A stretch of 36,853 nt of DNA from Myxococcota bacterium (lineage in GTDB: Bacteria; Myxococcota_A; UBA9160; SMWR01): positions 1 through 36,853 of the forward strand of contig JBCCEW010000040.1 in NCBI GenBank assembly GCA_039030075.1, written 5' to 3'. Under the pieces are notes generated by a model. It was not told the DNA's origin, did not search any database, and saw only the letters and a list, made by a program, of their open reading frames with translations. Shown here piece after piece: positions 22,961-33,456 of the stretch. Made by a program: the position numbers and the translations under genes. The first letter of the stretch is position 1. Each line of letters opens with the position of its first letter.

Positions 22961-24544
22961 TCAGCGGGATTGGCGCAAGATCTCCCGGGCTGCGTTCCGC
23001 CCGCAGGCGCCCATCACGCCGCCGCCCGGGTGGGTCCCCGCACCGCAGAGATAGAGATCCTGGATGGGGGTCGCGTAGCGAGCCCAGCCCGGGATCGGTC
23101 GCATCGAGAGCAGCCGATCCGGGGTCATCGCGCCGTGGAAGAGGTTCCCACCGGTCAGCCCGAAGATCCGCTCCAGGTCGGGGGGCGCCAGCACTTCCCG
23201 GTGGATCACGCTGTCGCTGAAGCCCGGCGCCACATCATCGATCAGCGCGCAGGCGCGGTCGGCGAGAGGGTCGCGCAGGGTGTCCCAGGCTTCGGCCGAG
23301 GCGTCGCACGGTCCCCACTGGACGAAGAGCGAGGCGATGTGGTGACCCGACGGCGCGAGGCTGGCGTCGAGTGCCGTCGGCAGGGTCAGCTCGACGATCG
23401 GACGCTCGGGGAGACGCCCGGCCTGCGCTTCCTGAAACGCGCGCTCGAGGTCGTCGAGGGTGGTGGCGCCGACGTGGATGGTGCCGTGATGTTCCGGGGC
23501 GACGCCATCCTGTGTACTTCCGCGAAACCGTGGCAGTCGGTCCAAGGCCAGGTTGACCTTGACGCTGCCGCTGCGGAAATCGAGCCCGGCGACTTCGCGC
23601 GCGAACGTTTCGGGGAGGGCGCCGGGGCCCACCCAATCGACGAAGGTGCGCTTCGGGTCGGCTCCCGACACCACGCAGCGCGCTTCGATCGAGGTGCCGT
23701 CGGACAGCGTGACGCCGCGCGCAGCGCCGCCGTCGACGTCGATGCGGGCGACCTCCGATTCGAGCCGGATCTCGACCCCTGCTTCCCGCGCCGCGCTCGC
23801 GATCGCTTCCGAGAAGCGTCCCATGCCGCCTTCGACGTAGGCCCAAACGCCGCGGGCGCCGCCGGTCTCCCCCATCACGTGATGGAAGAGCACGTAACCC
23901 GTTCCCGGAGCCGAGGGAGGAGCCCAGGCGCCGATCACCGCGTCGGTCGCGAGGGTCGCCCGGAGCGGTTCGCTCTCGAACCAGCGTTCGAGCTCCGGGC
24001 GGGCGGGGCCCAGCAAGAGGGCGAGGGCGCGCGGCAGCTCACGACCCAAGCGGAGGGCTCCCACCCCCAGGCGCCCCAGGAGTGCGAGGTCACGCGCGTG
24101 CAGCCGACCCGGGTCGGGCGCCGGTGCGTCGAGCGACGGCTCGATCCAGCGGGCGAAGCGATCGAGCATTGCTTCGTAGCGCGGGTAGCGATCGGCGTCG
24201 GAGCGCGAGAACGCGGCGATCGAGGCATGGGTCTCGGCCTCGCTCCCTCCGAGAAGGAGACCGCGTCCGTCGGGCAGCGGCGTGAAGGAGGATGGTGAAC
24301 GGCGCAGGAAGCGCAGGCCGTGGCGGGCGAGGTCGAGTTCCTTCGACACGACGGGTCGCACGAGTCCGGCCACGTACGCGGCCCGCGAGACGCGGTAGCC
24401 GGGCCAGCGTTCTTCGGTGACGCAGGCGCCGCCCACGCGATCGCGTCGTTCCAACACCACGACCCGTCGTCCTGCGCGCGCCAACAACGCCGCCGCGACC
24501 AGACCGTTGTGTCCCGCGCCGATGACGGCGACGTCCCACCCCAC
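22961..24544 (-). CDS. FAD-dependent oxidoreductase, PYROXD2 / phytoene-desaturase-like
   Basis: A 527-residue flavoprotein from GTG 24544. The N-terminus is a dinucleotide-binding fold, VAVIGAGHNGLVAAALLARAG, followed by VVVLERRDRVGGACVTEE, the GG motif of the amine-oxidase/carotenoid-desaturase superfamily. Later landmarks are FHHVMGETGGARGVWAYVEGGMGRFSEAIASAA, VVSGADPKRTFVDWVG, and the C-terminal FAD-contacting LYLCGAGTHPGGGVMGACGRNAA, which is typical of PYROXD2-like proteins. Substrates of the bacterial members are not known; some relatives act on carotenoids or retinoids. GTG 24568 would add eight residues. It is divergent from the CvpA gene, with 71 bp between starts. Confidence 0.87.
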   Translation of the reverse strand: MGWDVAVIGAGHNGLVAAALLARAGRRVVVLERRDRVGGACVTEERWPGYRVSRAAYVAGLVRPVVSKELDLARHGLRFLRRSPSSFTPLPDGRGLLLGGSEAETHASIAAFSRSDADRYPRYEAMLDRFARWIEPSLDAPAPDPGRLHARDLALLGRLGVGALRLGRELPRALALLLGPARPELERWFESEPLRATLATDAVIGAWAPPSAPGTGYVLFHHVMGETGGARGVWAYVEGGMGRFSEAIASAAREAGVEIRLESEVARIDVDGGAARGVTLSDGTSIEARCVVSGADPKRTFVDWVGPGALPETFAREVAGLDFRSGSVKVNLALDRLPRFRGSTQDGVAPEHHGTIHVGATTLDDLERAFQEAQAGRLPERPIVELTLPTALDASLAPSGHHIASLFVQWGPCDASAEAWDTLRDPLADRACALIDDVAPGFSDSVIHREVLAPPDLERIFGLTGGNLFHGAMTPDRLLSMRPIPGWARYATPIQDLYLCGAGTHPGGGVMGACGRNAAREILRQSR

Positions 24545-24615
24545 ACGCGCAGTGTAGGCGAGCTGCACACACAGCGAAGGCTCGCGGACGGCGCGCGTCT
24601 CCTACACTCGCGTCC

Positions 24616-25125
24616 GTGGAACCGCTCGCTCCCGTCGATCTCGTGGTGGCCGCGATCCTGGGGATCGCACTCTTGCGCGGGCTCTTCCTGGGCCTCATCC
24701 GCGAGGCCTTCTCGATCGGTGCGCTGGCCGCGGCCGTGCTCGCCGTGCGTCTGTTCCTCGACCCGGCGACCGCGTGGTTGGATGGCTGGGACTTCGAATG
24801 GCTACCCGCCGTCGCAACGCCCTGGGTGGCTGGAGCCGGGCTCGCACTCGCTGCGCTGGTGGCGGTCAACTGGGCGGGCGCGGTGATCCGAAAGGGCGCG
24901 CGCGCGGTGGGACTGGGTTGGGCCGACCGGCTGGGTGGCGCGGCGCTCGGGTTCGCCGAAGGCGCCATCGTCGCCGGCGTCCTGCTGGTGGTGCTCGGCA
25001 GCTTCTTCGGGCGCGATCACCAGTTCCTTGCCCGTTCCCAGAGCCTGGCCTGGTTGGAACAGCTCGAAGGCGCCACGGGCAATGGAGCGAGCGGCGCCGA
25101 CGTGGCAGCACCCCCGCGCGGCTGA
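24616..25125 (+). CDS. CvpA family membrane protein
   Basis: A 169-residue inner-membrane protein from GTG 24616. The CvpA pattern is visible: APVDLVVAAILGIALLRGLFLGLIREAFSIGALAAAVLAVR at the N-terminus, a second helix pair near VAGAGLALAALVAVNWAGAVIRKG, and LGWADRLGGAALGFAEGAIVAGVLLVVL, matching the family's DR-x2-G-x3-G-x3-G stretch. CvpA proteins are linked to colicin V production and, in enterics, to envelope stress resistance; the molecular job is unsettled. The soluble tail is short. The stop faces the permease stop at 10 bp. Confidence 0.87.
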   Translation: MEPLAPVDLVVAAILGIALLRGLFLGLIREAFSIGALAAAVLAVRLFLDPATAWLDGWDFEWLPAVATPWVAGAGLALAALVAVNWAGAVIRKGARAVGLGWADRLGGAALGFAEGAIVAGVLLVVLGSFFGRDHQFLARSQSLAWLEQLEGATGNGASGADVAAPPRG

Positions 25126-25134
25126 CGCGTCCCG

Positions 25135-26454
25135 TTAGGCGTCGGGCGCCGCCGCGCGTCGGCGCGCCCAGAAGAAGAGCGGAATCCCCAGCGAGACCGT
25201 GCCGAGGGAGAGCAACGCCTCCACGGGCCGTTCGACTGCGGCATAGGACGCGGTCCACAGGGACGCAGCGACGAACGCGATTGGCACCCAGGGGTATCCC
25301 GGGGTGCGGAACGGTCGCTCCAGCGCGGGTTCGCCGCGCCGCAGGGCGGGGACGCACGCGACGGCGAGGGCGCCAAAGATCGCGAGGGCGACGCCGGCGT
25401 ACACGACGATCTGTTCGAAGGTGCCCGTGAACAGGAGCAGCGTGACCCAGACGCTCTGGAGGAGCGTTGCCACGAGCGGCGCACCGCCCGACGTCGTGCC
25501 ACCGAGCGACGCGGGCAGCGCCCCGTCCTCGGCCATCGCCAGGGTGACGCGCGGACCAGCCCAGACCATGCTGCTCACCGAGCCCGCGATCGAGACGCAC
25601 AAGACCGCGACGACGACGCGCGCGGCGTCGCCCCCGAAAAGGGCGCGGGCCGATTTCTCGGCCACCGGGAGCACGGGGTCTGCGCCGAGGGCCGAGACCG
25701 GCAACGCCGCGAAGTACACGACGTTCACGGCCAGGTAGAGCGCGGTCACGAACACCGTGCCCCCGACCAGAGCGAGCGGGAGCGAACGCGCCGGATCGCG
25801 CATCTCGCCCGCGATGTAACTCGCCGCGTTCCAGCCCGAGAACGAGTAGAGCACGAACACCAACCCGACGGCGGCCGCGCCGAACCGGGGTTCGGCAGTG
25901 GCGAGCCCGGGGGTCTCGGCGGTGTCGCCGCCGACCACGAAGGCGAGACCGACGCCCACCAGGATCGGGGCGATCTTCAACACGGTGACCGCGCGTTGGA
26001 AGCGACCGCTCGCCTCGACGCCGAGCAGGTGGACCGCCGTGATGCTCCATACGAGGACGACGCCGATCCAGGCGGCGTCCCACTCGGCGAGTGTCGGCGC
26101 GAGTCGCTGCAGGTAGGCGGCGAACGCGGCGGCCGACGCGGCGATCGCGCCACCGAAGCCGAGGGCGAAGGAAGTCCAGCCGCTGAGGAAACCGGCGAGC
26201 GGACCGAAGGCGCGCCGCAGATAGACGTATTCACCACCGACCCGCGGCAGCGCCGCACCCAACTCGGCATAGGAGAGGGCACCGGCCAGCGCGAGCACGC
26301 CGCCGAGCAGCCAGAGACCGAGGATCCAGGCTTCCGAGCCCAGGTCTCGCGCCAGGAAGCCGGTGGTGGTGAAGATCCCGCTGCCCACCGCGTTCGAGAC
26401 GAGCAGACACGCGGCGGTGAAGGCGCCGACGCGGGCGAGGTCGCTGCCGGTCAT
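25135..26454 (-). CDS. APC-family amino-acid/polyamine permease
   Basis: A 439-residue transporter with about 12 membrane helices. The start is ATG 26454, overlapping the methyltransferase stop by 4 bp (ATGA); the frame open upstream of it is antisense-like. The APC substrate motif NAVGSGIFTTTGFLARDLG opens helix 1, followed by LALAGALSYAELGAALPRVGGEYVYLRRAFG in helix 2, the family's most conserved segment, and YSFSGWNAASYIAGEMRDPARSLPLAL in helix 6. The substrate is not readable; the overall pattern is closer to the LAT/basic-APC type than to gamma-aminobutyrate transporters. It is the last gene of the operon that starts with the TetR regulator. Confidence 0.9.
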   Translation of the reverse strand: MTGSDLARVGAFTAACLLVSNAVGSGIFTTTGFLARDLGSEAWILGLWLLGGVLALAGALSYAELGAALPRVGGEYVYLRRAFGPLAGFLSGWTSFALGFGGAIAASAAAFAAYLQRLAPTLAEWDAAWIGVVLVWSITAVHLLGVEASGRFQRAVTVLKIAPILVGVGLAFVVGGDTAETPGLATAEPRFGAAAVGLVFVLYSFSGWNAASYIAGEMRDPARSLPLALVGGTVFVTALYLAVNVVYFAALPVSALGADPVLPVAEKSARALFGGDAARVVVAVLCVSIAGSVSSMVWAGPRVTLAMAEDGALPASLGGTTSGGAPLVATLLQSVWVTLLLFTGTFEQIVVYAGVALAIFGALAVACVPALRRGEPALERPFRTPGYPWVPIAFVAASLWTASYAAVERPVEALLSLGTVSLGIPLFFWARRRAAAPDA

Positions 26455-27128
26455 TCTCGGCTTTGGGCACGCTCGGTGCGCGCATCGGCCGGATTCTCGA
26501 GAGGTGCGAACACCTCGAAGATCTGCACCGGAAGGAAATCGTGGCTCGTCGTGTGTTGGAAGCCGGCGGCCTGGAGAGCGTCGACGACATCGGCGCTTCG
26601 GCTCCAGTGCCCTGCGTTCTGGAACAGGCTGAGCACGCCGCCCAGGTCCTGGTTCGGCTCGAGGATCGCGACCCGTCCCGACGGCCGGAGATCTCGTTCC
26701 CGCAGCCGCGCGAAGTAAGGTGCCTGGTCTTCGATGTGGTGGAAGGTGTTCACGGTGAAGAGCACGTCGATCGCGCCGTCGGGCAGCATGGGATCCTCGA
26801 ACTCTCCGCGCACGACCTGAACGTTCTCGAGACCCGCGTCGGCGACGAAGCGCTCGAGCTCTTGGACCAGCTCGGCGTCGACCTCGACGGCGTAGACCTT
26901 GCCGTTCGCACCGACGGCGTTCGAGAGGTAGGGCAGGAAGTATCCCTCGCCAGCGCCCAGGTCGGCCACCGTCTGGCCGGGTTCGAGCGCGAGCACGTCC
27001 ACCACCCGTTCGGGGTGCTGCCACGCGGCGCGGCTTCCGAGGCGGCTGAACTCGAGCTTCGACACGTTCTGGCAGCCGAGCAGACCGAACAGGACGAACC
27101 CGACGAGGCTGACCCGCGTGGCCCGCAT
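26451..27128 (-). CDS. Class I methyltransferase-fold protein with a lipoprotein signal
   Basis: From ATG 27128, whose A and TG share bases with the rhodanese stop (TGATG), 225 residues. Residues 1-19 read as a lipoprotein signal: MRATRVSLVGFVLFGLLGC with lipobox LLGC. After about 20 residues the SAM-binding fold begins: motif I VADLGAGEGYFLPYL (54-68), VYAVEVD as the acidic end of strand 2, VLFTVNTFHHIED and VAILEPNQD. A SAM-dependent methyltransferase on the outside of the inner membrane would lack SAM, so either the signal is not used or the domain binds something else. Cotranslated with rhodanese upstream and permease downstream. Confidence 0.82.
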   Translation of the reverse strand: MRATRVSLVGFVLFGLLGCQNVSKLEFSRLGSRAAWQHPERVVDVLALEPGQTVADLGAGEGYFLPYLSNAVGANGKVYAVEVDAELVQELERFVADAGLENVQVVRGEFEDPMLPDGAIDVLFTVNTFHHIEDQAPYFARLRERDLRPSGRVAILEPNQDLGGVLSLFQNAGHWSRSADVVDALQAAGFQHTTSHDFLPVQIFEVFAPLENPADARTERAQSRE

Positions 27129-27571
27129 CACGAGCGCACTCCGGCGGTCAGGCGCGCGACGGTGCGCCCGGCCCGGATCCAGCCCGCGAGGCCTTCGGGC
27201 AGCACGGAAACGTCGTGGTAGCCGGCGTCGCGGGCCTTGCGCGCGGCCTCGGTCGCCGATGTACACCAGGCGTTGTAACAGTAGAAGACGAGCGGGGTGA
27301 AACGGTCGGCCGGAAGCTCCCGCTCGGGGTCGTAGTCGCGGTAGCTCGTGAGGAGCCGCGCACCCGGGATCACGCCGTTCTTCTCGCGGGTGTCCGCGCT
27401 GTTCGCGTCGACCAACACCGGCGGGCGCTGTGGATCGTCGAGACGCTGCACCAGTTCGGGGACGTCCAACACGCCCAGTCCTTCGTGGCTCGGGAGCGCG
27501 ATCCACGCGGTGAGCGCCACGCTGCCGAGGAGGATCGGAGCGGCGATCGGAAGTAGACGTCGGGTCTTCAT
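27128..27571 (-). CDS. Exported or membrane-anchored rhodanese-like protein
   Basis: A 147-residue single-domain rhodanese. ATG 27571 has AGGAG about eight bases upstream. Residues 5-26 are a hydrophobic signal or anchor (LLPIAAPILLGSVALTAWIAL). The rhodanese fold follows: LDVPELVQRLDDPQRPPVLVDANSADTREKNGVIPGA (the family's D-x-R-x4-H-I-P-G-A site, here without the His) and the active loop VFYCYNAWCTSATEAARKARDAGY, with the nucleophile most likely the first Cys and a second Cys five residues on. Such proteins move sulfane sulfur or bind oxidised thiols. It lies 34 bp after tetR and 1 bp over the methyltransferase start. Confidence 0.83.
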   Translation of the reverse strand: MKTRRLLPIAAPILLGSVALTAWIALPSHEGLGVLDVPELVQRLDDPQRPPVLVDANSADTREKNGVIPGARLLTSYRDYDPERELPADRFTPLVFYCYNAWCTSATEAARKARDAGYHDVSVLPEGLAGWIRAGRTVARLTAGVRS

Positions 27572-27605
27572 CGAAGGGTCTCCTGAGGGTTGGGGGGGAG
27601 GGAAC

Positions 27606-28307
27606 TCAGTCGGGCGGCAAGAGCGCCGCGAGCAACATTTGGATCGCGGTTTCCTCGGCCACCGCCGGAGGGATCTCCTGCGGTGCCGGGTCCCAATGGA
27701 TGTGCACGGCCCAGGTGGTCAGCGACTCGGAGACGAACCGCGCGGCGACGAGTGGGTCGGGGTAGCGGCGAAACGCGCCTTGCTGGGCGCCCGCGTCGAG
27801 CACGTTCGCGAGGGCCGCGACCAGGGCAGCGCGACCGTCGCGGTAGAAGGTCTGGCCGAGCTCGGTCGATTCGAGCTCACAGCGGTCGATCAGCTTGATC
27901 GCGGTCCGGAAGCGGCTGAGCAGACCGAAGACGTCGCGCAGGATGGTCTCGAGGCAGGCCCGTGCGGTCTTGGGGCCGAGTCGTTCGGGCAGTCCCGAGG
28001 CCAGAGAGTCCGGCATGCCGGCCTCGGCGAGCACCCGCTCGAGGTCGCGCTGCAGGGCGTCGGGCGGTCGGGTCGCGAGCGGGAGGGGGAGGGCGTCCGG
28101 GTCTGCGAGTTCGCCGGCCGCGTAGCGGATCGCGTGGTCGAAGAGCGCCTCCTTGCTCTCGACGTAGAGGTAGAGCGTGCCCTTCGCGACCCCGAGCTCC
28201 TGGGCGACGTCGGCCATCTGGGCCCGCCGATACCCCTGCCGGATGAAGACCCGGGTCGCGGCTTCGAGGAGGTCACGGATACGGTTCGGCGGGGTCTGGC
28301 GGGGCAC
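27606..28307 (-). CDS. TetR-family transcriptional regulator
   Basis: A 233-residue regulator. The N-terminal HTH is standard for TetR: RIRDLLEAATRVFIRQGYRRAQMADVAQELGVAKGTLYLYVESKEALFDHAI (residues 9-60). The rest is a helical ligand-binding domain without recognisable specificity. The start is GTG 28307, which stands only 8 bases after the -10 box of the promoter at 28315-28342, so the message is probably leaderless. A palindrome of TetR type lies within that promoter, so it most likely represses itself and the rhodanese, methyltransferase and permease genes downstream on the same strand. Confidence 0.92.
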   Translation of the reverse strand: MPRQTPPNRIRDLLEAATRVFIRQGYRRAQMADVAQELGVAKGTLYLYVESKEALFDHAIRYAAGELADPDALPLPLATRPPDALQRDLERVLAEAGMPDSLASGLPERLGPKTARACLETILRDVFGLLSRFRTAIKLIDRCELESTELGQTFYRDGRAALVAALANVLDAGAQQGAFRRYPDPLVAARFVSESLTTWAVHIHWDPAPQEIPPAVAEETAIQMLLAALLPPD

Positions 28308-28314
28308 GTTCGGG

Positions 28315-28342
28315 AGTATAAATGACCGAATAGGTCAGTCAA
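28315..28342 (-). promoter_or_regulatory. Promoter with embedded TetR-type operator
   Basis: Minus strand: -35 TTGACT (28342-28337), 16-bp spacer, -10 TATACT (28320-28315), both near the sigma-70 consensus. The spacer holds the inverted repeat TGACC-TATTC-GGTCA (28337-28323), overlapping the last base of the -35. A bound repressor would block polymerase. The expected start of transcription (about 28308) is next to the GTG of the regulator. This is the best promoter in the window. Confidence 0.78.
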
Positions 28343-28368
28343 TATCGGATGCAGCGACAGCCCTCCCT

Positions 28369-28396
28369 AGCCCTCCCTGTCTCAAGAGGGAGGGCT
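28369..28396 (-). terminator. Strong hairpin at the end of the PEP-CTERM gene
   Basis: A perfect 10-bp inverted repeat, AGCCCTCCCT and AGGGAGGGCT around an 8-base loop, begins in the last base of the stop codon of the PEP-CTERM gene. A second direct copy of AGCCCTCCCT lies at 28359-28368 and could form the alternative stem. No T tract follows, so it may act as an mRNA-stabilising or Rho-assisted terminator. It separates that gene from the tetR promoter 27 bp further on. Confidence 0.55.
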
Positions 28397-29982
28397 TACC
28401 TGCGGCGGCGGGCGCGGGGCAGAACGAGGAGCACCGCTGCCACCATCCACCGGAGGCCAGAGGGCTCGGGCAGCAGCAGCGCCGGACTGAACTCGCTGGT
28501 GTTGAATGCGCCATCCGTCGCCGTGGCCACGATTTCGGTCCCAGGTCCCAGTGGCAGCGAGGGAGTGAAACTCACCTTGCGGAAGTTCAGCTGCGACGCC
28601 AGCGGGTAGCTGTCCGAGCCGAGCCAGATCCGCCCTTCATCCCCCTCGGCGAGGTAGAAGTCGACCGTGAACGGGAAGGGCGCCTCGGTTGCGGCGCTAT
28701 CGACGAGGTAGCGAACCGTCAGCGTATCCGTGGCGGTGTCGTACTCGGTCTGGGTGGAGTCGAACTCCGGAAAGTTCATCCGGCGGTTCGCGCCGCCGTC
28801 GATGTCGAGAGAGTCGTTGGCGGTCGCACCGTCGGCGCCCAGGTCGATACCGAGCCCCGAGTTTCCCCGCATCGAGTTGCCGCGAACGAGATTGTTCTCC
28901 CCCGCGAGCACCGAGACGCCCGTCGTCGCGTTGAAAGCGATGGTGTTGAACGCGGCGCCCACGTCCCCCACCCGCGTCAGCGTCGTCGTGATGAAGACGC
29001 CGCTGCCGCCGTTGCCGAGCGGAGAGGTCTCCGAGACGTCGGTTCCGATCGCGTTCGCGACCACGTCGGTCTGACTGCTCCCCACGAACACGCCGCCGAG
29101 CTGGTTGCCCGAGATCAGGTTTCCGGCGCGCACCGGAATGGTGCTCGAGCCGGTGAAGAAGCCCCCGACGTCTCCGACCGAGTTCAAGCCCGAAGTGGTG
29201 ACGTACACGCCGAACCCCAGGTTCGGGACGGCCTGGGTGCCCGTGACGTCCGTGCCGATCCGGTTACCCGAAAGGATGTTGTTGTCGCCGCGGATCTCGA
29301 CCCCGTCATCGCCGTTTCCGGAGATGACGTTGCCTTTGCCCGTGCAGCCGGTGACCTGGTTGCAGGTGCGTCCGACGACGACGTGGTCCGCAAACTCCTC
29401 GATCTGGAGTCCGAAGCCGCCGTTGCCTGCACCGACGGAGCCAAGGTCGATGCCGAGATGGCAGCCCTCGACGGTGACATCCTGGTTGCCCTGCGTGATG
29501 CGCAGGCCCGTGCCGGGGAATTCGATGATCGTGAGGCCCCGGACGGTCGATCCTGCGCTTCCCGAGATGAGGGTGAGGCCACTGCCACTCGCCAACGCGG
29601 ATCCGTCGAGGACGATGACCGGGAGCGCCCACGGGTCGGCGGTTCCGTAGCCCGGTGCGGTGTAGCCGTCGATCACGATCTCGTTTCCGAGGGGTGGATA
29701 GGGGGTTTGAGGGGCGAGGACGACCTGGCCGTTCGCATCCGGAGTCAAAGAGGTGGACGAGAACGCGATCGTGTCGCCGTTGCTCGCCTCTTCGAGGGCC
29801 GCGCGGAACGTGCACTCGGGAAACGGGAAGGGGCCGATGAACACCACGCCACCCGTGTTGCAAGTGCCGTCGACGGGGTTGGTATCCCCACTGTCGCCTG
29901 CCGAGTTCACGGTGAGGGTGACGCCGGCCACGGGAGCGCCGAGCGCGAAGACCAGGACGAGGGCGACGCCTGCGATTCGCAT
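28396..29982 (-). CDS. CSLREA-type parallel beta-helix surface protein with PEP-CTERM sorting signal
   Basis: A 528-residue secreted protein. ATG 29982 has GAGG about five bases upstream. Residues 1-20 are a signal peptide (IAGVALVLVFALGAPVAG). Next is a CSLREA-like module: LTVNSAGDSGDTNPVDGTCNTG then CTFRAALEEASNGDTIAF. The middle is a right-handed beta-helix with repeated coils such as GNVISGNGDDGVEI, NILSGNRIGTDVTG, GNLISGNQLGGVFV and VVANAIGTDVSE. A beta-sandwich-like part follows (VRYLVDSAATEAPFPFTVDFYL). The C-terminus, PEPSGLRWMVAAVLLVLPRARRRR, is a PEP-CTERM signal, recognised and cut by an exosortase, so the protein should be processed to the cell surface or matrix. No exosortase gene is in the window. 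Confidence 0.88.
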   Translation of the reverse strand: MRIAGVALVLVFALGAPVAGVTLTVNSAGDSGDTNPVDGTCNTGGVVFIGPFPFPECTFRAALEEASNGDTIAFSSTSLTPDANGQVVLAPQTPYPPLGNEIVIDGYTAPGYGTADPWALPVIVLDGSALASGSGLTLISGSAGSTVRGLTIIEFPGTGLRITQGNQDVTVEGCHLGIDLGSVGAGNGGFGLQIEEFADHVVVGRTCNQVTGCTGKGNVISGNGDDGVEIRGDNNILSGNRIGTDVTGTQAVPNLGFGVYVTTSGLNSVGDVGGFFTGSSTIPVRAGNLISGNQLGGVFVGSSQTDVVANAIGTDVSETSPLGNGGSGVFITTTLTRVGDVGAAFNTIAFNATTGVSVLAGENNLVRGNSMRGNSGLGIDLGADGATANDSLDIDGGANRRMNFPEFDSTQTEYDTATDTLTVRYLVDSAATEAPFPFTVDFYLAEGDEGRIWLGSDSYPLASQLNFRKVSFTPSLPLGPGTEIVATATDGAFNTSEFSPALLLPEPSGLRWMVAAVLLVLPRARRRR

Positions 29983-30071
29983 GGGGACCTCGCGATAGCG
30001 GGTCCACGGGCACCCGCGGTTGGATCCAGATCGGTGACGATCCAGGTGCGTCGAGCATACGCCCGTCGGCG

Positions 30072-30698
30072 TTACGGGTGTCGCTCCTGCGGGACGCTCA
30101 GGTACTCGGCGAGAGCCTCGGTGACCCGCCCGGTTTCTCGCTGCCAGGCGAGGCGCGCGAGCATGCGGGCCAGCGTTCCATCGACGCGCCCTTCCGCGCG
30201 GTAGCGGACGCGCGTCCGACTCTCGTCGAGGGCTTCGACTCGCCACTCGCTGCGGAAGTCCTCGAGCCGCACGACCTCGGGGGGCGCCTCGGGGGCGGCT
30301 CCGGGGAGGCCAAGGGCCTCGAGCACGAAGAGCCCCGGGGCGTTCCGCCAGCGATAGCGCGCGACGTAGTCACGGTCGCTCGCCGGCCAGGGGAACTCCT
30401 GGCGGCCGTAGACGCGGGCCTCCGCCTCGGCGCGGGAGAGCACGCGCCACTCGACGACGGTGGGAAACCAAGCACCGAACCTCTCGAGATCCAGCAGGGC
30501 CGCCCGGACTCCTTCGAGTGGCTGCTCCAGCACGGTTTGCGCCTCGGCGTGCAGCCAGTCGGTTTCGCTCTCGCCACCCGCCGGGCGGGCCACGAACGCG
30601 ACCACCACCGCGAGGGACACGCCCAACCCGACCCAGGAACGGGCCCATCCGGACCCGAAAGAACGCCGCTCGCGAAACCGACGGTCGTCCACCGTCAT
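30072..30698 (-). CDS. START/SRPBCC-like lipid-binding domain protein, exported
   Basis: From ATG 30698 it has 208 residues; a TTG at 30719 would add seven. A basic start is followed by a signal or anchor helix (VGLGVSLAVVVAFVARPAGG). The rest reads as a START/SRPBCC domain: TVLEQPLEGVRAALLDLERFGAWFPTVVEWRVLSR, then EFPWPASDRDYVARYRWR and FRSEWRVEALDESRTRVRYRAEGRVDG, with the family's long C-terminal helix (LARMLARLAWQRETGRVTEALAEYL). Such domains bind lipids or other hydrophobic ligands. The start lies only 10 bp from that of the divergent plsC, so their promoters must overlap the coding regions. Confidence 0.78.
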   Translation of the reverse strand: MTVDDRRFRERRSFGSGWARSWVGLGVSLAVVVAFVARPAGGESETDWLHAEAQTVLEQPLEGVRAALLDLERFGAWFPTVVEWRVLSRAEAEARVYGRQEFPWPASDRDYVARYRWRNAPGLFVLEALGLPGAAPEAPPEVVRLEDFRSEWRVEALDESRTRVRYRAEGRVDGTLARMLARLAWQRETGRVTEALAEYLSVPQERHP

Positions 30699-31443: not shown

Positions 31444-33456
31444 TCAGGCGGGCGGGTCGACCCAGCGTCCGTGGGAGCGAATCAGCTCGACCAGCCGATC
31501 CGTCGCCTCTTCGGTCGGAACGTGGCGCTCGATGCAGTCGTGCCCGACGAAGAGGTTGACCGTTCCGGGGCCGGACCCGACGTAGCCGAAGTCGGCGTCG
31601 GCCATTTCTCCGGGGCCGTTCACGATGCAGCCCATGACGGCGATCTTGACGCCCTTCAGGTGGCCGGTGCGCGCCTTGATGCGCGCGGTGGTCTCTTCGA
31701 GATCGAAGAGGGTGCGGCCGCACGACGGGCAGGAGATGAACTCGGTGCGCGTTGTGCGGCGCCGAGCTCCCTGAAGGATGCGGTAGGCGAGGTCCGTGGC
31801 GCGACCGGGGTCGTCGAAGCCGCGCAGCACGATCGCATCGCCGATCCCGTCGCAGAGGGGCGCGCCGAGCTCGACCGCTGCGTCGAGGAGATCCGATGCA
31901 AGATCCGCGTCGGCGCGGCGCTGGTGGCGCAACACGATCGGCACGTCGGCGGCGCCGCGCGCCCGCAGCTGCGCCGCCACCGCGCGCACGCCGTGCACCT
32001 TGCGCTCGCAGTCCACCGAGATGGCGATGTCGTCGAGCCCGGCGCGTGCGCTCGCTTCCAGGGCCCGGTCGAGCAGCGGCGGAATCTCGCGCAAGGGGCC
32101 CCGCAGCTCCCACTCCACCGGCAGGTTGCGCCCGGCCGCGGCGTTCGCGACGGCGTCGAGTTCGTCGTCCTCGATCAGGCTGCCGGCCGCGACGACCAGC
32201 CGCGACGCGAAACCGACGCTCTCCTGGGCGGCGCGCGCCTCGGCGCGGATCGCCAGCGGGAGGTCGCGCCCCACGCGGCCCAGGGCAGCGTGGAGTGACG
32301 CCAGTCGCTCGCCGTCGGGAGAGTCGTGGACCTCGACGCAGAGGCCTTCGCAGGCGACGTCGGGCTGGGCCGCCAGAGAGCGGGCGAGCGCTGCAACCGC
32401 TTGCTCCGGGTCGGCCGGCACGGCTCCGAGCGAGAGCTCGACGCGCACCGGATTCGAGCCGCCCAGGTGCCCGAGCGAACGCGTGCTGCGTTGGCGGTGG
32501 CGGTAGGGGTCGTCGACGAAGGGCGCGCCGGGATCGGCCGGCGGTGCCTCGGGTCGCGCCCAGGCGGCTTCGGCGCGGCGCGCGAGCGCCCGTGCGACCG
32601 GGATCTCCTTCAGCGGGTCTTCGGTGAGCGACACGCGGATGGTGTCGCCCAGTCCGTCTTCGAGCAGCGCGCCGATGCCGATCGCGCTCTTGATGCGACC
32701 GTCTTCGGCGTCGCCGGCCTCGGTGACGCCGACGTGGAAGGGGTAGCCAGCTGCGTTCGGAGCGCGCTCGGCGAGTCGAGCCGCGAGGAGCCTGTAGGCC
32801 TGGATCGCGACCTGGGCGTTGCTCGCCTTCATGCTGAAGATCACGTCGTGGTAGGACTCGTCTTCGCAGACGTCGAGGAACTCGAGGGCGCTCTCCACCA
32901 TGCCCGCGGGCGTGTCGCCGAAGCGGTTCAGGATGCGATCCGCCAGCGAGCCGTGGTTCGTGCCGATGCGCATCGCGCGCCCGAGTTCCTTCATGCGCCG
33001 CACGAGCGGGCGGAAACGCTCGGCGGCGCGTTCGACTTCCTCGGCGTACTGGGCGTCGGTGTAGTCGCGGACTTCGAACTTCTTCTTGTCGGCGTAGTTG
33101 CCCGGGTTCACCCGGACCTTCTCGACGTGCTCGGCGGCGATCATCGCGGCGCCGGGCGTGTAGTGGATGTCGGCCACGAGAGGGACGTGTACGCCGCGCC
33201 GACGCAGCTCAGCGGCAATCTCGGCGAGGTTCTCGGCTTCCTTCTTCGAGGGCGCGGTGATCCGCACGATCTCGCAGCCGACTCCCGCGAGGCGCTCGGC
33301 CTGGTCGACGGTGCCCTGGGTGTCGAGGCTGTCCGTCGTCGTCATGGACTGCACGCGGATCGGTTCGTCGCCTCCGATCCCGATGTCGCCGACGCGGACG
33401 ACGCGGGTGGCCCGTCGGCGCGGGGCGTAGACGTTCTCGACGTAGGGCCGGCTCAC
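31444..33456 (-). CDS. ispG: 4-hydroxy-3-methylbut-2-enyl diphosphate synthase, long form
   Basis: IspG (GcpE) reduces methylerythritol cyclodiphosphate to HMBPP in the MEP pathway, using a 4Fe-4S cluster. The N-terminal TIM barrel is clear: EPIRVQSMTTTDSLDT, VADIHYTPGAAMIAAEHVEKVRVNPGNY, GTNHGSLADRIL and VTEAGDAEDGRIKSAIGIG. The C-terminal cluster domain has C576-x2-C579 (CPSCGRTLFDL), C610 (MGCIVNGPGE) and E617. At 670 residues it carries a large insert between them (about 310-565), as in the long form known from plants, Chlamydiae, Bacteroidetes and some others; the short form is about 370. GTG 33456 overlaps the alaS stop by 4 bp. Confidence 0.95.
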   Translation of the reverse strand: MSRPYVENVYAPRRRATRVVRVGDIGIGGDEPIRVQSMTTTDSLDTQGTVDQAERLAGVGCEIVRITAPSKKEAENLAEIAAELRRRGVHVPLVADIHYTPGAAMIAAEHVEKVRVNPGNYADKKKFEVRDYTDAQYAEEVERAAERFRPLVRRMKELGRAMRIGTNHGSLADRILNRFGDTPAGMVESALEFLDVCEDESYHDVIFSMKASNAQVAIQAYRLLAARLAERAPNAAGYPFHVGVTEAGDAEDGRIKSAIGIGALLEDGLGDTIRVSLTEDPLKEIPVARALARRAEAAWARPEAPPADPGAPFVDDPYRHRQRSTRSLGHLGGSNPVRVELSLGAVPADPEQAVAALARSLAAQPDVACEGLCVEVHDSPDGERLASLHAALGRVGRDLPLAIRAEARAAQESVGFASRLVVAAGSLIEDDELDAVANAAAGRNLPVEWELRGPLREIPPLLDRALEASARAGLDDIAISVDCERKVHGVRAVAAQLRARGAADVPIVLRHQRRADADLASDLLDAAVELGAPLCDGIGDAIVLRGFDDPGRATDLAYRILQGARRRTTRTEFISCPSCGRTLFDLEETTARIKARTGHLKGVKIAVMGCIVNGPGEMADADFGYVGSGPGTVNLFVGHDCIERHVPTEEATDRLVELIRSHGRWVDPPA

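Follow-up and report, generated by a model that had tools for sequence, protein, structure and literature searches.

Autoregulated operons in which a TetR-family repressor gene lies right before its targets, with the operator over the promoter, have been described (PMC3511530). The same arrangement is found in the window, the whole stretch of 36,853 nucleotides analysed here, but the cargo in the window consists of an exported lipoprotein with a methyltransferase fold, a rhodanese and a LAT-type exchanger, and the regulator message is apparently leaderless. BasC, a bacterial Ala/Ser/Cys exchanger of the LAT family (PMC6472337), has the TM1 glycine motif in common with the window permease. However, the two are only distantly related in sequence, and the window permease, a putative amino-acid exchanger, sits in a TetR/methyltransferase operon. 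The best match to the window methyltransferase, in sequence and in fold, is the SAM-dependent methyltransferase of Aquifex aeolicus (3dh0); the window protein bears a lipoprotein signal. The periplasmic PQQ-associated (TIGR03865) and other exported single-domain rhodaneses resemble the window rhodanese in the exported domain and the two cysteines of the active-site loop, but no PQQ enzymes were seen near the window locus. Assignment to the PQQ-associated CXXCW rhodaneses was rejected, the match to TIGR03865 being 28.4 bits against a cut-off of 128.05.

Nothing relevant turned up in the literature searched, whether on methyltransferases that are periplasmic or lipoproteins or on the four-gene set. 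A preliminary description of this DNA had recognised no named system with such gene content, and none was found in that literature. To our knowledge, no described TetR regulon has such cargo.

Organisation of the operon and its products

The four genes lie head to tail on the minus strand in the order TetR, rhodanese, lipoprotein methyltransferase and LAT-type permease (Table 1). Rechecking of coordinates, strand and junctions gave a 34-bp gap between the TetR and rhodanese genes, a 1-bp overlap between the rhodanese and methyltransferase genes and a 4-bp ATGA overlap between the methyltransferase and permease genes, exactly as first described. TetR genes no more than 35 bp from their neighbour have been treated as co-transcribed (PMC3511530). 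Only 9 bp separate the end of the permease gene from a convergent CvpA-like gene, which bounds the operon on that side. The four genes apparently form one transcription unit and, within this Myxococcota-related order, one lineage's own version of a modular cassette.

Table 1. Genes and regulatory elements of the operon and its upstream border, with positions in the window
Feature	Position	Strand	Details
APC-superfamily LAT-type amino-acid exchanger gene	25135..26454	-	439 aa; K160, Y240 = BasC K154, Y236
Lipoprotein class-I SAM-methyltransferase-fold gene	26451..27128	-	225 aa; lipobox LLGC(19); motif I VADLGAGEGYF
Single-domain rhodanese gene, predicted exported, accessory member	27128..27571	-	147 aa; FYC(98)-x4-C(103) motif
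Shine-Dalgarno AGGAGA of rhodanese gene	27579..27584	-	Sequence
TetR/AcrR-family autoregulator gene (predicted), AefR-like C-terminal domain	27606..28307	-	233 aa; GTG start 7 nt past -10 box
Sigma-70-like promoter TTGACT-N16-TATACT	28315..28342	-	Promoter scan, operator matrix
Putative TetR operator TGACTGACCTATTCGGTCA, palindrome in promoter spacer	28323..28341	.	Phylogenetic footprinting
Inverted repeat AGCCCTCCCT/AGGGAGGGCT	28359..28396	.	Between upstream minus-strand gene and operon

All products exceed the gathering cut-offs of their Pfam models (TetR_N and TetR_C_7; Rhodanese; Methyltransf_25/11/31; AA_permease_2). The scores of the regulator, 56 bits for TetR_N and 25.6 bits for TetR_C_7, place it in the AefR-like TetR family. 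The rhodanese has the PF00581 domain and C98 within FYCYNAWC, taken as the active-site cysteine from its position in the loop; its N-terminus resembles a signal peptide or membrane anchor and is without a lipobox.

The third product combines the Rossmann-like fold and the G-x-G-x-G motif I of class-I methyltransferases, and its AlphaFold model (pLDDT 88.8) has 3dh0 as the nearest solved fold. The SAM motif is near-invariant across 34 sequences from many phyla. The lipobox is kept among the orthologues. In the TetR-linked group, two loci of which (L047 and L049) lack TetR, all 13 methyltransferases have it when scored by regular expression and hydrophobicity, as do 22 of 27 methyltransferase paralogues of the order. 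Among the matches listed, which cover at least 80 loci from a named genome collection and many phyla, a lipobox is present in 21 of 80 relatives and a hydrophobic N-terminus in a further 50, 71 in all. Two exported products had been proposed in the preliminary description, and these features of the methyltransferase and rhodanese N-termini are consistent with that prediction. A search of plasmids yielded distant methyltransferases only.

A link between the methyltransferase family and RND efflux was considered and dropped: among the matches listed, ten loci shared a neighbour cluster of RND type, mostly distant or unrelated on inspection. A close arrangement is confined to the Nitrospira loci L161 and L147, with L158 partial. 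In both, the lipoprotein methyltransferase homologue is encoded on the same strand as an RND pump gene and 3' of it, close by in L161, where an apparent membrane-fusion gene precedes the pump gene; L147 has a second, broken methyltransferase copy.

The permease has a full-length AA_permease_2 fold and its best matches are to LATs, though its match to TIGR00911 falls under the curated cut-off (207 against 701.8 bits). The best solved relative is BasC (6f2g; full-length match, E 1e-47), and cystine/glutamate exchangers are also among the matches. A lysine in TM5 and a tyrosine in TM7, K154 and Y236 in BasC, are reported to be fully conserved in LATs (PMC6472337), and the window permease has both (Table 1). 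The earlier assignment to an amino-acid-type permease is thereby borne out.

Upstream of the operon, the inverted repeat in Table 1 has no T run and is possibly the terminator of the upstream minus-strand gene, an ORF at 28396-30246 (616 aa) encoding a right-handed beta-helix repeat protein (PF13229). A minus-strand ORF at 31444-33456 (670 aa) has a start that by eye is like IspG/GcpE, the length suggesting the long form. On the other side, positions 22961-24568 encode a FAD-dependent protein like carotenoid ketolases and desaturases, with 257 bits for the CrtO model, far under the cut-off of 1000.

Promoter, operator and start of the message

The promoter is the sole sigma-70-like match in 25000-28500, where shuffled sequences give 0.0 ± 0.1 matches. 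The palindrome filling its spacer follows a consensus, TGACYGAMnnnnTCRGTYA, that is kept in relatives across families. Against an operator matrix built from 17 sites, all from outside the window, it scores 39.2 bits, compared with 3.8-11.2 for shuffled windows; the next matches in the window are the same palindrome reversed or shifted, followed by 5.6 bits. Among 15 control loci without a TetR-methyltransferase pair, 14 score below 4 bits and one 11.6, and the matrix scan of these loci found no operator beside methyltransferase paralogues that lack TetR. Eight TetR loci outside the matrix were also scored: L053, L058, L111, L110 and L121 reach 29-44 (the operator of L110 is identical to that of L131, a matrix member), L120 and L115 about 15, and L122 10. 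The operator occurs in about 20 other loci, 5' of whichever gene leads, be it TetR, the methyltransferase or a cytosolic methyltransferase with an MFS-type transporter.

Apart from the window operator, no place in the 5.76-Mb genome fits the consensus without a mismatch, and the regulator therefore appears to be local. Judged by perfect sites, a wider regulon was rejected, as there is no second one; sites with one mismatch are few, and sites with two mismatches arise by chance according to a reversed-pattern control.

In 9 of 10 TetR-first loci, the window included (28307), the start codon lies 6-7 nt past the -10 box. A leaderless message is therefore predicted for the autoregulator, with transcription starting at about the TetR start codon. 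In most loci led by another gene the leader is longer and has a purine-rich ribosome site. Given the junctions, the promoter match and the conserved palindrome, the single operon with an operator embedded in one promoter that was first proposed is upheld, and we consider it highly probable that the four genes form an operon autoregulated by its own TetR.

Recurrence and exchange of cargo

The comparison set of 79 genomes, including the window genome, holds one congener and otherwise members of the family and order. The relatives are mostly draft metagenome genomes, and absence from one of them may reflect a gap. TetR adjoins the lipoprotein methyltransferase in 16 of the 79 genomes, from four families. 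The pair is near full-length in G000, G013, G005, G067, G050, G044, G071, G024, G065, G074, G072 and G038, and broken in G045, G052, G076 and G077. In seven of them the unit continues with a LAT-type permease (G000, G013, G065, G074, G052, G076 and G077), and some loci have TetR and methyltransferase without a transporter. In G024 and G038 the operator is found some 2 kb upstream, before a cytosolic methyltransferase, an MFS-type transporter, the lipoprotein methyltransferase and TetR in that order; the first two were recognised visually and from their resemblance to L131.

In several loci (L119, L120, L121, L122, L046 and L116) frameshifts or internal deletions affect the methyltransferase and TetR genes beside an often intact permease, which may be decay or assembly error. 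In G013 the permease is the damaged gene, and in G076 the methyltransferase and TetR fragments are fused into one frame.

The transporters of the unit belong to three lineages: LAT clade A (window, G013, G017), LAT clade B (G065, G074, G052, G076, G077) and MFS type (G024, G038). The window permease groups only with those of G017 and G036 (100/100) and is separate from the operon permeases of clade B in the tree. Permeases of two LAT clades thus occupy the unit, possibly through independent recruitment or replacement. The window methyltransferase groups with G013, G067, G008 and G036 (98/91) and the window TetR with G051 and G013 (96/92).

The TetR of G051 leads an acyltransferase-3 operon. 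Six TetR paralogues (L129-L134) all have an operator of the same type, and in five (L129-L132 and L134) an acyltransferase-3 homologue follows; Pfam, run on L129, gave an Acyl_transf_3 match. The TetR/acyltransferase-3 genes of L131 are followed by DUF2147 and a cytosolic methyltransferase. Because the same operator type precedes differing genes, the repressor cassette appears to swap cargo. At its core, the system thus appears to be an autoregulating TetR cassette that can carry different envelope cargo: the lipoprotein methyltransferase, acyltransferase-3, and MFS or LAT transporters.

The rhodanese is the rarest member. Close relatives (47-49% identity) were found in only two other genomes of the 79, G071 and G017, and in G071 the gene is on another contig than the TetR-methyltransferase pair. 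Sampling of 282 genomes throughout the phylum yielded more rhodanese homologues, none with other operon genes within about 1.5 kb. In L179 (Archangium) a rhodanese and a methyltransferase gene lie 3.4 kb apart on opposite strands, which was taken as coincidence. Within the 79 genomes, the rhodanese accompanies other operon genes only in the window genome and in G017.

The G017 locus (L116; one contig, genome rated 68% complete) has on one strand TTGACTGACTGAATCAGTCGGTTAT, a start codon, a TetR-like stretch, the rhodanese, a methyltransferase fragment and the permease, in the order of the window. The TetR-like stretch matches only residues 133-143 (8 of 11 identical, E 0.11), which is weak by itself. 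The rhodanese is interrupted by an internal TAG, the fragment matches the C-terminal part of the methyltransferase (47% over 45 aa), and the permease match is nearly full-length (65% identity). The locus is apparently a decayed four-gene operon, the decay being possibly an assembly artefact.

The preliminary description had suggested a search for the four-gene set elsewhere, with separation of the genes in close relatives as evidence for a chance cluster. The set does recur in the same order in another family, though apparently decayed. It is labile, since no rhodanese and no close permease homologue were detected in the one congener compared (G001), and in G036 the permease, the methyltransferase and a TetR paralogue are on three contigs. 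The TetR-methyltransferase core has withstood the comparison.

Possible functions of the cassette

Our best overall explanation, held at a little under even confidence, is an autoregulated operon for inducible handling in the envelope. From the position of the palindrome we infer that the AefR-type TetR would bind in the spacer of its own promoter, shutting off itself and the downstream genes, and that a small ligand would lift the repression. The core cargo would be a lipoprotein of the envelope whose SAM-methyltransferase fold is intact, frequently accompanied by an inner-membrane transporter, here a LAT-type exchanger. The lipoprotein would modify or bind a compound outside, the exchanger would move that compound or its amino-acid counterpart over the inner membrane, and in the window lineage a periplasmic rhodanese would add a sulfur-transfer step. 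That the operon serves to handle or detoxify a small compound, amino-acid-like or thiol-bearing, is its most likely role but a more tentative suggestion, and confidence in the chemistry is low to moderate. The cargo is so varied (acyltransferase-3, MFS, none) that a common substrate would be hypothetical.

A sulfane-sulfur or thiol theme, as first envisaged, fares less well, since TetR, the methyltransferase and often a transporter persist without the rhodanese in the 79 relatives. The rarity of the rhodanese beside the other genes demotes sulfur handling from the core function. As a full periplasmic sulfur system, the permease would move cysteine or cystine, the rhodanese transfer sulfane sulfur, the methyltransferase methylate a thiol or sulfide, and TetR sense a sulfur compound. 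Cysteine uptake is conceivable because BasC is an Ala/Ser/Cys exchanger, and cystine/glutamate exchangers match too; the rhodanese and LAT clade A co-occur in both the window and G017, and the G071 rhodanese homologue has a lipobox-like FAGC. However, no other TetR-methyltransferase locus has a rhodanese, that of G017 lacks the first of the two CxxxxC loop cysteines and has an internal stop codon, and the methyltransferase was close to no characterised thiol methyltransferase in the searches made. We regard such a system as rather improbable.

The acyltransferase-3 genes behind TetR paralogues with the same operator, some followed by DUF2147 and a cytosolic methyltransferase, would also suit envelope remodelling, in which TetR would respond to a compound that is membrane-active or lipid-like by driving whichever envelope enzyme the cassette carries, with permease and rhodanese as passengers. 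A cytosolic methyltransferase of this type also heads two lipoprotein-methyltransferase operons. Two LAT clades in the cassette make it hard to call the permeases passengers, though, and no lipid-modifying motif was seen in the lipoprotein; remodelling is conceivable but unlikely. The four genes being apart or missing in the congener and G036 might even suggest a chance cluster or an assembly-level coincidence without functional unity. Yet start and stop codons overlap, there is a single conserved promoter-operator, three of the genes recur in several families and all four in G017; the conserved operator and the recurrence leave this reading next to no probability, and it was dismissed.

Within the preferred explanation of inducible envelope handling, catalysis by the exported methyltransferase remains putative, as we know of no source of SAM in the periplasm. 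SAM is itself an alpha-amino acid. It is a very speculative thought that the lipoprotein is a working extracytoplasmic methyltransferase supplied by the LAT-type exchanger through SAM/SAH exchange over the inner membrane; if true, the operon would encode an inducible system for methylation outside the cytoplasm. Exported proteins that keep the SAM-methyltransferase fold intact occur widely, and no paper on their function was found in the literature searched. In this order some of them come with their own repressor, one conserved operator and, in many cases, a neighbouring transporter, so that the role of exported methyltransferases and the access of SAM to the periplasm can be tested directly in a small genetic unit.
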